Shown here piece by piece: positions 17,620 through 21,215 of a stretch of DNA of 39,162 nt. The stretch is from Anaeromyxobacter terrae (GTDB lineage: Bacteria > Myxococcota > Myxococcia > Myxococcales > Anaeromyxobacteraceae), in contig NZ_JALCYY010000047.1 of the NCBI RefSeq assembly GCF_022690685.1, positions 1 through 39,162 on the forward strand. Reading direction: 5' to 3'. Below the pieces are notes generated by a model. It did not search any database. It worked only from the letters and a program-made list of their open reading frames with translations, and was not told the DNA's origin. Each line of letters opens with the position of its first letter. Within the stretch, counting starts at the first letter, position 1. Both the position numbers and the translations under genes were made by a program.

Positions 17620-18564
17620 TCAAGCAGCCGACGGCGCGCGCGCGGCGGCGGCCCGCCGGCGCAGGACGGCGACGAGCGCGTCGTGAACCGCCGGGTCGAT
17701 CTGCGTCCCCCGGAGCTCGGCGAGGAGCGGCAGCGCGTCGCCCTCCGCGAGCGCAGCCTGGTACGGCCGGTTCGTGGTGCAGGCGTCCCAGGTGTCGGCG
17801 GCGTTCACGATGCGGGCGACGAGCGGGATCTCCTCGCCGCGCAGCCGGTCCGGGTAGCCGTCGCCGTCCCAGCGCTCGTGGTGGCCGCGGATGGCGGGCA
17901 CGGCCCCGCGCAGGAACTCGACGCCGGCGACGATCTCCGCGCCGGTCCCGGGGTGGACCTCGACGAGCGCGCGCTCCTCGGGCGTGAGGGCGGCGCGCTT
18001 CGCGAGGATCGCGTCGGGCACGCCGATCTTGCCGATGTCGTGCAGGATCCCGCCGTACACCAGGGCGGCGACGGTCTCGCGCGGCAGGCCGAGCTCGCGG
18101 CCGATCTCGGCGGCGAGCTCCGCCACGCGCTCGGAGTGGCCGCGCGTGTAGGGGTCCTTCGCGTCGATCGCGGAGGCGAGGCTCCGGAGCGTGTCGAGGT
18201 AGCCCGCCTCGAGGTCGTGGATGAGCCGGCGGTTCTCGGCGTCGTAGCGCGCGAGCTCGCGCGACATGTGGTTGAAGCCGAGGGCGAGGTCGCCGAGCTC
18301 GTTCCGGGCGCGGACCGGGACCTCCCGACCGAAGCGGCCGCGCGCGATCTCGAGCGCGCCACGCACGCACTCGGCGATGGGCCGGGTGATGCTCCGCGCG
18401 ACGAGCGCCGAGAGCGCGGCCGCCACGGCGAGCGCGCCGGCGGCGGCGGCGACGCTCGCGGAGTCGAGCTGCGCGTGGCCGCGGGCGAGGAGCCCCACGA
18501 CGAGCGCGGCGGGCGCGCCGGCCGCGCACGCGACGAGGAGGAGGAGGGTGCGCTGGAGCCTCAT
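17620..18564 (-). CDS. Membrane HAMP/HD-GYP protein, probable c-di-GMP phosphodiesterase
   Basis: A 314-residue protein. Two N-terminal hydrophobic helices (about 6-26 and 37-57) flank a very short periplasmic part, then a HAMP-like linker (58-110, SITRPIAECVRGALEIARGRFG). The HD-GYP domain (about 122-300) shows RGHSERVAELAAEIG, HDIGKIG (His175, Asp176), HPGTG, HHERWDGDGYP (Gly-Tyr-Pro at 236-238) and ARIVNAADTWDACTTNRPY. Metal ligands are present, so c-di-GMP hydrolysis to GMP or pGpG is likely. The ATG at 18564 overlaps the receiver gene stop (ATGA). The longer open frame upstream is a shadow of the receiver gene. Confidence 0.88.
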   Translation of the reverse strand: MRLQRTLLLLVACAAGAPAALVVGLLARGHAQLDSASVAAAAGALAVAAALSALVARSITRPIAECVRGALEIARGRFGREVPVRARNELGDLALGFNHMSRELARYDAENRRLIHDLEAGYLDTLRSLASAIDAKDPYTRGHSERVAELAAEIGRELGLPRETVAALVYGGILHDIGKIGVPDAILAKRAALTPEERALVEVHPGTGAEIVAGVEFLRGAVPAIRGHHERWDGDGYPDRLRGEEIPLVARIVNAADTWDACTTNRPYQAALAEGDALPLLAELRGTQIDPAVHDALVAVLRRRAAAARAPSAA

Positions 18565-18920
18565 GCCGTGGCCGCGGCGCGGGCGAGCGCCCGCGCGAGG
18601 GTCCTGCGCGAGACCGGCTTCTCGAGCACCACCGCGACCTCCTCGGCGCCCTCGAGCGCGCGCGCGCTGCCGTCCGTGATGGCGGTGAGGAGGACGGCCG
18701 GCGCCGCGACGCCCGCCGCGCGCATCGCGCGGAGCGCGTCGAGGCCGGAGAGGCGCGGCATGAGGAGGTCGAGCACGAGGACGTCGGGGCGCTCGCGCGC
18801 CGAGAGCGCCACCGCCTCCACGCCGTCGGCGGCCACGACCACCGCGTGGCCGAGCTCGGCGAGGAGGTCGGAGACGAGGGCGCGGATGAGCCCGTCGTCG
18901 TCGGCGAGGAGGACCTTCAC
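18561..18920 (-). CDS. Single-domain response regulator (CheY-like receiver)
   Basis: A 119-residue receiver with no output domain. The acidic pocket is Asp7-Asp8-Asp9, the phosphorylation site Asp51 (LVLDLLMP), the switch Thr79 (LLTA) and the conserved Lys101 followed by Pro (EKPV). The start is GTG and the stop overlaps the HD-GYP start by four bases. In RpfG-type proteins a receiver is fused to HD-GYP; here they are separate but coupled, so the receiver may control the phosphodiesterase. No histidine kinase is encoded nearby. Confidence 0.9.
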   Translation of the reverse strand: MKVLLADDDGLIRALVSDLLAELGHAVVVAADGVEAVALSARERPDVLVLDLLMPRLSGLDALRAMRAAGVAAPAVLLTAITDGSARALEGAEEVAVVLEKPVSRRTLARALARAAATA

Positions 18921-18948: not shown

Positions 18949-19602
18949 TCACGGCCCGAGGCCCACCCACTCCGACCCGTCGTCGTACACCTCGCGCTTC
19001 CAGATCGGCACGTCCTGCTTCAGCCGCTCGATGCAGGCCTCGCAGGCGCGGAAGGCCGGCGTCCGGTGCGCCGCCGCGCAGGCGATGACCACCGCCGCCT
19101 CGCCGGGCGCGAGCGCGCCGACGCGGTGGACGATGGCGACCTCGACGCCGTGCGCGCGCGCCACCTCGGCCCCGATCTCCGCGAGCTTCCGCTCCGCCAT
19201 CGGCGCGTAGGCCTCGTACTCGAGCCTGACCACGCGCTTGCCGTGCGACTCGCCTCGGACCGCGCCGGTGAAGGTGACGATCCCGCCGCGGCCGGGGCCC
19301 GAGACGGCGTCCACCACCTCGGCGAGCGAGAGCGGCCGGTCGACCACCTGGAAGCGCGGCGCGCCGCCCGAGACGGGCGGCACGATCGCGACCTCCGCCC
19401 CGTCGCGCAGCGGCGCGTCGTCGGGGGCGAACTCCTGGTCGACCGCGATCCGGCAGCGCGGCAGGATGCGCGCGAGGGCGGGGTGGGCGCCCTCGAGCGC
19501 CCGGCGCAGCTCGGCGACCGTGGCGGGCGCGCGCTCGAGCGTCTCGCGGGAGGCGCCGGCCGCCTCCCGGGCGCCGGCGAAGTAGAGGATGTGGATCGGC
19601 AT
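18949..19602 (-). CDS. moaX: MoaD-MoaE fusion: molybdopterin synthase
   Basis: A 217-residue fusion. Residues 1-80 are MoaD, the ubiquitin-like sulfur carrier, ending VPPVSGG at 79-80. Residues about 84-217 are MoaE, the catalytic subunit that adds the dithiolene sulfurs to precursor Z (cyclic pyranopterin); visible motifs are GGIVTFTGAVRGESHGKRV, RLEYEAYAPMAERKL, HRVGALAPGEAAVVI and PIWKREVYDDGSEW (Lys202 in the active site). MoaD normally needs a free C-terminal Gly-Gly for thiocarboxylation, so the fusion must be cut after Gly80, as reported for M. tuberculosis MoaX. It lies in a packed operon with no other moa gene in the window. Confidence 0.92.
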   Translation of the reverse strand: MPIHILYFAGAREAAGASRETLERAPATVAELRRALEGAHPALARILPRCRIAVDQEFAPDDAPLRDGAEVAIVPPVSGGAPRFQVVDRPLSLAEVVDAVSGPGRGGIVTFTGAVRGESHGKRVVRLEYEAYAPMAERKLAEIGAEVARAHGVEVAIVHRVGALAPGEAAVVIACAAAHRTPAFRACEACIERLKQDVPIWKREVYDDGSEWVGLGP

Positions 19603-19620: not shown

Positions 19621-20664
19621 TCACCGGCCGAGGAGCCGCGCCAGGTCGCCGAACACGGTCACGACGAGGATGAGCAGGAGGAGCGCGACGAAGCCGGCGA
19701 GGTGGACGTAGTTCTCGACCTTCTCGTTCACGCGCCGCCGCGTGATCATCTCCCACGCGAGGAACACGAGCCGGCCGCCGTCGAGCGCGGGGACGGGCAG
19801 CAGGTTCAGGATCGCGAGGACGATCGAGATCGTCCAGACGAGGGCGAGGAAGGGCTCGGCGCCCTGCCGCGCGCCGCGGACGAGCTCTTGCGCGATCCCG
19901 ACCGGCCCGGAGAGCTCCGCGCGCTGCTTGCCGGAGAACATGCTCCCGAACGCGGCGAGCTGCGCGCCGGCGGCGGCGTTCGTCCGCTGGAACCCCTCGA
20001 CGAGCGCGCCCGCCGGCCCGCGGCGCACCGCGACCTGCGCCTGCGCGAACCCGACGCGCCCCACGCCCCGGTCGTCGCGGGGCGTGATCGGCAGCGCGAG
20101 CCGCTCGCCGCCGCGCTCGACCTCGAGCACGATCGGCTCGCCGGGGTGGCGCTGCAGCTCCGCGACGAGCGCGCGGAACGAGTCCACCGGCGTGCCGGCG
20201 ACGGAGAGGATCCGGTCCCCCGGTGCGAGGCCCGCGGCGGCCGCCGGCATGTCCGGCATGAGCGCGCCGACGCGCGCCGCCGGGTCCGGGGCGCGGAGCC
20301 CGATGGTCGCGAGGAGCGCCGCCGCGACGAGCACGGCGGTGACGTAGTTCGCCGCGGGGCCGGCCACGATGACGAGGAAGCGCCGCCAGGCGGCCTGGTT
20401 CGCGTAGGCGCGCGGGTCGGCCGGGTCGACGTCGTCGCCGGGCGACATCCCGGCGATGCGCACGTACCCGCCGAGCGGCAGGGCGGAGACGGCGAACTCC
20501 GTCTCGCCGCGCCGGAACGACGCCACGACGGGTCCGAAGCCGACGCTGAAGCGCTCGACGCGCATGCCGGACCGGCGCGCCGCGAGGTAGTGCCCCGCCT
20601 CGTGCAGGATGATGAGGAGCGACACCGCCAGGACCGCGGCGGCGATGGCGAGGACCGTGCTCAC
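19621..20664 (-). CDS. rseP: RseP-type site-2 metalloprotease
   Basis: A 347-residue intramembrane zinc protease of the RseP/M50 family, which cuts anti-sigma factors or other transmembrane substrates. The first helix holds the zinc motif HEAGH (His21, Glu22, His25); the second zinc region is NLLPVPALDGG in a late transmembrane helix. One PDZ domain lies between (about 140-225, VGALMPDMPAAAAGLAPGD); E. coli RseP has two. The GTG start at 20664 overlaps the AMMECR1 gene stop (GTGA); the longer upstream frame is a shadow. The usual neighbours dxr, cdsA and uppS are absent here, so orthology to E. coli RseP is by family only. Confidence 0.9.
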   Translation of the reverse strand: MSTVLAIAAAVLAVSLLIILHEAGHYLAARRSGMRVERFSVGFGPVVASFRRGETEFAVSALPLGGYVRIAGMSPGDDVDPADPRAYANQAAWRRFLVIVAGPAANYVTAVLVAAALLATIGLRAPDPAARVGALMPDMPAAAAGLAPGDRILSVAGTPVDSFRALVAELQRHPGEPIVLEVERGGERLALPITPRDDRGVGRVGFAQAQVAVRRGPAGALVEGFQRTNAAAGAQLAAFGSMFSGKQRAELSGPVGIAQELVRGARQGAEPFLALVWTISIVLAILNLLPVPALDGGRLVFLAWEMITRRRVNEKVENYVHLAGFVALLLLILVVTVFGDLARLLGR

Positions 20665-21215
20665 TGTTCCGCTCCCTCGCCGAACTCGTCGGCCTCGAAC
20701 ACCTCGACCTCCGTCTCGGGCTCCTGCCACGCGCGCGCGGGGAGCCCGGCCTTGAGACAGCACCGGGAGAGGAACGTCTCCGCGTCCCATCCCTGCTCGA
20801 GCGCCACCTTGGGCAGGAGCGCTCCGCGGTGCCAGCCGCGGCGGACGAGGACCCCGTGCGTGCCCACCTTCACGGCCCGCCGGTCGTCGAGCCGGTGCGG
20901 CGGCGCGAGGACCGACACCGCGACGCGCAGCTCGGCGATCTCGTCGGCGCGCAGCGGCGGGAAGCGCGGGTCCTCCTTCGCGGCGGAGACCGCCATGCGC
21001 GCGACCGTCGCGGCGAGCGAGCCGTCGGGACGGAACGTGCCGACGCAGCCGCGCAGCGCGTCGCCGACGTGGAGCGTGACGAAGGCGCCGCGGGGCTCGG
21101 CGAGCGGGCCCGACGCGGGGAGCGACGGGGCCGGGGCGATGCCGAGGTGGCCGAGGATGGTGCCGCGGGCGATCCCGAGGAGCGCGGCGCGCTCGGTGGC
21201 GGAGAGCCCGCTCAT
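20661..21215 (-). CDS. amrA: AMMECR1-domain protein (AmmeMemoRadiSam protein A-like)
   Basis: A 184-residue protein of the AMMECR1 family. Family marks are LRGCVGTFRP (Cys57), the AKEDPRFPPLRADEIAELRVAVSVL segment and GVLVRRGWHRGALLPKVALEQGWDAETFLSRCCLKAGLP. Its biochemistry is not established; in many prokaryotes it is encoded with a Memo-like protein and a radical SAM enzyme, neither of which is in this window. It overlaps both neighbours by four bases (Nudix upstream, RseP downstream), so it is surely expressed with them. Confidence 0.9.
   Translation of the reverse strand: MSGLSATERAALLGIARGTILGHLGIAPAPSLPASGPLAEPRGAFVTLHVGDALRGCVGTFRPDGSLAATVARMAVSAAKEDPRFPPLRADEIAELRVAVSVLAPPHRLDDRRAVKVGTHGVLVRRGWHRGALLPKVALEQGWDAETFLSRCCLKAGLPARAWQEPETEVEVFEADEFGEGAEQ

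Follow-up and report, generated by a model that had tools for sequence, protein, structure and literature searches.

Fused molybdopterin synthase precursor MoaDE of Anaeromyxobacter terrae and its probable maturation by a JAMM protease

MoaD is well established to be functional only with a free C-terminal glycine (PMC4326299). In the window analyzed here, i.e., the whole 39,162-nucleotide stretch of Anaeromyxobacter terrae DNA, a MoaD domain ending in Gly-Gly is continued directly by MoaE in the same open reading frame (ORF). The locus thus raises the question of how the masked Gly-Gly becomes available for sulfur transfer.

Results

Domain organization of moaDE

The 217-residue ORF is located on the minus strand, with its ATG at 19602 and its stop codon at 18951..18949, and the boundaries proposed in the first-pass annotation were exact. 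The plus-strand reading of 18949-19602 yields an overlapping frame only, and the GC content at codon position 3 of moaDE is 99%. The features of the locus are as follows.

18949..19602, minus strand: moaDE, fused molybdopterin synthase of 217 residues (ORF; Pfam ThiS and MoaE; the only MoaE of the genome).
19363..19602, minus strand: MoaD (ThiS/ubiquitin-like beta-grasp) domain, residues 1-80 (Pfam ThiS, TIGR01682, fold matches).
19363..19368, minus strand: codons of Gly79-Gly80, with predicted cleavage after Gly80 and before Ala81 (invariant Gly-Gly, variable P1′, low pLDDT).
18952..19362, minus strand: MoaE catalytic domain (residues 81-217), containing the invariant motif LKxxxPIWK (K195...K202; Pfam, Foldseek, invariant columns).
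19621..20790, minus strand: rseP, upstream neighbor (Peptidase_M50/PDZ, TIGR00054); context, judged to lie outside the processing system.
18561..18920, minus strand: response-regulator receiver protein, downstream (PF00072); context only.

The fusion with an internal Gly79-Gly80 that had been read from the DNA was borne out by the ORF and by profile matches. Pfam assigned ThiS (MoaD, PF02597) to residues 5-80 (E 3.9e-20; 72.6 bits versus a cut-off of 22.5) and MoaE (PF02391) to residues 87-196 (E 2.4e-36; 124.8 bits versus a cut-off of 23.4), and the NCBIfam moaD equivalog TIGR01682 matched residues 3-80 (72.4 versus a cut-off of 66.15), i.e., the beta-grasp domain scores as MoaD. The order MoaD-Gly-Gly-MoaE within one ORF is that of fused molybdopterin (MPT) synthases of the DR2607/MoaX type, and the protein possesses both the MoaE fold and the conserved lysine motif, in which we take K195 and K202, judged by motif, to be the counterparts of E. 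coli Lys119 and Lys126. The MoaD model ends with Gly79-Gly80, after which come Ala81-Pro82; 137 residues run on past Gly80, and the gene product therefore does not end in a free Gly-Gly. Because the chain extends beyond Gly80, which would be free only once processed, residues 1-80 are designated a MoaD precursor domain. The closest named relative is Anaeromyxobacter soli SG29 (97% identity over the fusion). As noted previously, rseP is the immediate upstream neighbor, located on the same strand and separated from moaDE by 18 nt.

moaDE as the sole MPT synthase source

The genome (5.65 Mb, 99.98% complete) contains one MoaE match, which is moaDE. Three ThiS-family proteins scored above the cut-off: moaDE, the sole one of MoaD type; a ThiS of about 69 residues, the gene of which directly precedes thiG and has a thiE-like gene close by; and a CysO/SAMP1-like protein of 91 residues, which ends in VPAIAGG and is encoded in a thrC-cysO-moeZ-cysK-cysK-JAMM cluster. 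No separate moaD or moaE, the search for which the first-pass annotation had recommended, was found in this genome, and moaDE is its only visible MPT synthase source. Since moaDE is present in single copy alongside moaC and at least eight loci that exceed the cut-off of the molybdopterin oxidoreductase family, Moco appears to be needed and the moaDE product should be functional.

The Gly-Gly junction

Fifty-six fusions from Myxococcota, Streptomyces, Armatimonadota, Latescibacterota, Poribacteria, Bacillota, and Acidobacteriota were aligned. Both glycines of the junction and the preceding Pro-Pro are invariant, as are K195 and K202. In the 51-sequence junction set, the spacing between the Gly-Gly and the first MoaE motif, where measurable, is 25 to 37, and the P1′ residue after the Gly-Gly varies (A, S, H, N, Q, G, L, T, or D). 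The AlphaFold model of MoaDE (mean pLDDT of 92) features two well-formed domains, and only the segment formed by residues 78-80 has pLDDT values below 50. According to Foldseek, the MoaE half best matches 9jbd, the MoaE domain of Mycobacterium tuberculosis MoaX (TM of 0.91 by target length), and the MoaD half matches MoaD/SAMP1 folds (1fm0_D, 5mpo_A, and SAMP1). Given its invariance, the variable P1′ residue and linker length, and the predicted disorder at residues 78-80, we read the Gly-Gly as exposed and under selection rather than as a mere linker.

Recoding at the junction, i.e., a partial stop or a frameshift after Gly80, would supply free MoaD with its Gly-Gly without any protease. However, a +1-frame stop within three codons of the junction is absent from 50 of the 51 fusions, a −1-frame stop within the same distance is absent from 49 of the 51, and no conserved internal ATG or other start was found at the junction in this set. 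In view of this lack of a conserved recoding stop or internal start, we consider such an origin of free MoaD to be extremely improbable. As MoaD needs a free C-terminal glycine and a recoding signal is missing, proteolysis after Gly80 is the simplest reading.

The uncut fusion might itself be active, either with MoaD serving the MoaE of another chain or with sulfur arriving by a route that does not involve a C-terminal thiocarboxylate, and the preservation of the fusion over long evolution with both domains intact would be in accordance with such an enzyme. However, E1 chemistry requires a free C-terminal glycine, the Gly-Gly is strictly invariant where a linker could drift, and the fusion is associated with a JAMM protease across genomes (see below). 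Moreover, a Gly81 mutant of MoaX, which stays uncleaved, is inactive (PMC4326299). Activity of the uncleaved protein is thus very doubtful, and the other sulfur route considered in the first-pass annotation is disfavored.

Candidate proteases in the genome

The search for a JAMM-type protease, likewise proposed beforehand, was positive. The last gene of the thrC-cysO-moeZ-cysK-cysK-JAMM cluster (G000:C57:28788-29228) encodes the one JAMM/MPN+ protein of the Mec/desampylase type in this genome (PF14464, 65 bits), hereafter C57 JAMM. Its active site is complete (E...HSHx7SxxD, with E, HSH, S, and D invariant), and among the NCBIfam models it matches only desampylase, with 44.5 bits and thus below the cut-off of 130. 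The genome of the fusion accordingly contains a JAMM/MPN+ protein with a complete active site, as is characteristic of DR2607/MoaX-type systems. Further JAB-type proteins are encoded on contigs C104 and C35, both RadC-like as read from their HNHP motif, and on C55, a JAB-E1 fusion, which leaves C57 JAMM as the candidate. The C55 frame (L023:7255-9243) comprises 663 residues with an N-terminal JAB and a C-terminal ThiF/E1 domain, an architecture of ubiquitin-like or defense-type systems. In none of 80 loci does a JAMM gene flank the fusion, which counts against JAMM as its protease. RseP was rejected as the processing enzyme, in agreement with the doubts expressed in the first-pass annotation, since the adjacency of rseP is confined to Anaeromyxobacteraceae and is not seen at the other fused loci sampled.

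Co-occurrence of masked Gly-Gly and JAMM in Myxococcota

Fusion and JAMM profiles were run on the same 156 Myxococcota genomes, each at least 90% complete; MoaD architecture was called from the profile matches, and split cases were called from sequence. A fused MoaD-MoaE ORF is present in 120 of the 156 genomes and is thus not a chance event. JAMM was detected in 119 of the 120 fused genomes and in all three genomes with a split MoaD carrying a tail after the Gly-Gly (GG-IDREAAP, GG-IR, and GG-SGIW), i.e., in 122 of 123 genomes with a masked Gly-Gly, whereas only 2 of 8 genomes with a split MoaD and an exact Gly-Gly-stop possess it. JAMM is absent from the single genome with MoaE in which no MoaD was found and present in 4 of 24 genomes lacking MoaE. 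The comparison of masked with free Gly-Gly gave a Fisher p of 3e-8, a raw value that overstates independence owing to the kinship of the genomes; with one vote per family, the counts were 16/16 versus 2/5 (p of 0.008).

All six JAMM-less split genomes encode an exact Gly-Gly-stop. In the MoaE tree, they occupy at least three separate places (G030; G161 to G164; G070), with G030 as the sister of the mostly fused f7 group and G161 to G164 as the sister of the fused G154/G160, so that two of the three placements are sister to lineages rich in fused, JAMM-positive genomes. The JAMM-negative state of G161 to G164 and of four other genomes was assigned by elimination (28 negatives, of which 20 were listed and the 8 left fit exactly), and G161 was also checked directly. 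G030 and G161 contain only marginal, different JAB-like proteins, and G070 has one RadC-like match. In the two JAMM-positive Gly-Gly-stop genomes, G150 and G027, the JAMM gene is part of a CysO-CysK cluster, where it has another job. The sole JAMM-less genome among the 120 fused ones is G113 (99% complete, 390 contigs; fusion at C178, L255), in which neither the JAMM profile nor PF14464 detected a JAMM; it represents either an assembly gap or a true exception. G042, which had appeared as another exception in a single-protein search, was dismissed as such when its JAMM was found by the profile search.

Outside the Myxococcota set, a PF14464 protein was present in 9 of 11 fused genomes reached via named loci, including two Streptomyces, Armatimonadota, Latescibacterota, Poribacteria, and Bacillota; it was absent from the other two, both of which are metagenome-assembled genomes (MAGs) whose completeness is not known. 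Locus L137 is split, with an exact Gly-Gly-stop.

Several individual loci deviate from the common organization. The tailed split moaD genes are located at L171 (G029, IDREAAP), L172 (G051, IR), and L247 (G068, SGIW), and those of G029 and G051, two genomes placed in a family of fused forms, appear to result from gene fission with JAMM dependence retained. The Anaeromyxobacter relative G006 (L262) encodes, in addition to the fusion, a second, split MoaD/MoaE pair near an E1-like gene, the MoaD of which ends in PPVCGG, and G016 carries two fused copies.

Relation to known systems

The fusion DR2607 of Deinococcus radiodurans is cleaved by the JAMM protein DR0402, the JAMM mutant accumulating cPMP (PMC8832034, citing Yang 2018). 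It resembles MoaDE in being the sole fusion of its genome, in having an internal glycine as the cleavage site, and in the presence of a JAMM/MPN+ protein; cleavage has been demonstrated there, whereas here we infer it, and the JAMM gene of A. terrae differs in its location within a cysO-moeZ-cysK cluster. M. tuberculosis MoaX (Rv3323c) shares the MoaD-MoaE order, a Gly-Gly junction (Gly-Gly-Ser in MoaX), and the requirement for cleavage after the Gly-Gly: it remains inactive until Gly82 is severed from Ser83, the responsible protease being left unidentified in the 2015 paper (PMC4326299), and it failed to complement in E. coli (PMC3227635). MoaX coexists with moaD1/2 and moaE1/2 as an additional copy, whereas moaDE is the only copy. 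In Haloferax, HvJAMM1 cleaves a SAMP1-MoaE fusion and frees SAMP1 and MoaE (PMC4443979). There, too, a JAMM frees MoaE from a beta-grasp protein ending in Gly-Gly, and C57 JAMM has its below-cut-off match to the desampylase model; however, the in vivo linkage is an isopeptide bond on the active-site lysine, unlike the gene-encoded linear fusion of moaDE. The mycobacterial CysO-CysM-Mec+/MoeZ system (PMC3227635) is alike in its CysO-like carrier, MoeZ (E1 plus rhodanese), cysteine synthase, and JAMM; the A. terrae cluster differs in having two cysteine synthases and a JAMM that, as we propose, would also act on MoaDE. In 2006, Iyer et al. had already listed both MoaD-MoaE fusions and E1-rhodanese/JAB operons in a row that includes the abbreviation "Adeh," which we take to mean Anaeromyxobacter dehalogenans (PMC1779556). 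The Deinococcus, MoaX, and HvJAMM1 precedents and this listing place the system among those of a known kind. In the open-access literature searched, we found neither a paper naming MoaX together with Rv1334 (Mec) nor a phylum-wide link between masked Gly-Gly and JAMM.

Discussion

We consider it highly likely that moaDE encodes a fused MPT synthase precursor that is matured by a JAMM protease through a cut after Gly80 and activated by MoeZ. Specifically, the fused precursor would be translated, and the Zn-dependent JAMM/MPN+ protease C57 would cut the exposed linker after Gly80, releasing MoaD with a C-terminal Gly-Gly and MoaE. MoeZ, the E1-rhodanese encoded in the JAMM's own cluster, would then adenylate and thiocarboxylate MoaD, which would hand its sulfur to cPMP in MoaE. 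We infer the cut, C57 JAMM as its agent, and the activation of the product by MoeZ. The MoaX-like cleavage considered in the first-pass annotation thus gains strong support from the invariant Gly-Gly, from the JAMM that tracks the fusion across the phylum, and from the precedents. The choice left open there between cleavage and another sulfur route is largely settled by the JAMM-cleaved fusion of D. radiodurans (PMC8832034), which the first-pass annotation had overlooked.

The fusion might instead be cut by RseP or a housekeeping protease, with JAMM co-occurring only for CysO-dependent cysteine synthesis. The location of the JAMM gene within the cysO/cysK cluster in Anaeromyxobacter, the fused but JAMM-less G113, and the protease left unnamed in the 2015 MoaX study (PMC4326299) are in line with this, and the JAMM may in part be retained for CysO instead of MoaDE; because CysO is a second plausible job, the presence of JAMM alone is no proof of action on MoaDE. 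However, the gene context varies. Besides the Anaeromyxobacter cluster, E1-cysO-rhodanese-JAMM clusters without cysK occur in Myxococcaceae, E1-rhodanese-JAMM in G147 and G112, and moeZ-JAMM alone in G010 and G009, i.e., JAMM is also kept where its locus contains neither cysK nor cysO. In G042, G111, G147, and G160, the ThiS-family proteins consist of the fusion and a stand-alone ThiS-like protein only, and these genomes yielded no CysO, yet JAMM is present and adjoins an E1 gene in G042, G147, and G160; there, the fusion is the sole visible Gly-Gly substrate for JAMM. Further counterarguments are the six Gly-Gly-stop genomes that lack JAMM and the cleavage of the Deinococcus fusion by DR0402 (PMC8832034). 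RseP, for its part, is an intramembrane protease, the gene of which neighbors the fusion in one family only. A protease other than JAMM is therefore improbable, and maturation by C57 JAMM is preferred.

The fused synthase with masked Gly-Gly is the norm among the Myxococcota genomes examined and is also present in other phyla, rather than being peculiar to Deinococcus and M. tuberculosis. What is added to the known systems is the co-occurrence rule, i.e., comparative evidence, independent of biochemistry, that JAMM is kept when the MoaD Gly-Gly is masked. Whether this extends to a general rule, according to which one Mec-type JAMM is the dedicated maturase in bacteria wherever the MoaD Gly-Gly is masked by a fusion or a short tail, may also release cysteine from CysO, and in mycobacteria is the MoaX protease, we regard as evenly balanced. 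The comparative evidence reduces the search for the MoaX protease to a single candidate, Mec, and points to processing enzymes common to Moco and cysteine synthesis; under the general rule, these would be one protease and one E1 (MoeZ).

CysO-like proteins with extensions of their own were also observed. In G012 and G017, which belong to the same family, a second kind of fusion with an internal Gly-Gly joins a CysO-like beta-grasp domain ending in LVPAIAGG to a ThiF/E1-like domain (L362:2839-4083, minus strand, and L363:2689-3813, plus strand) near the JAMM gene; the junction, GG-APELD, has the same GG-AP sequence and logic as that of MoaDE. At eight further loci, all of them in JAMM clusters (L185, L186, L257, L264, L163, L156, L159, and L160), the CysO-like protein extends one residue past the Gly-Gly (ending in AIAGGR or AIAGGC), so that CysO there would need trimming too.
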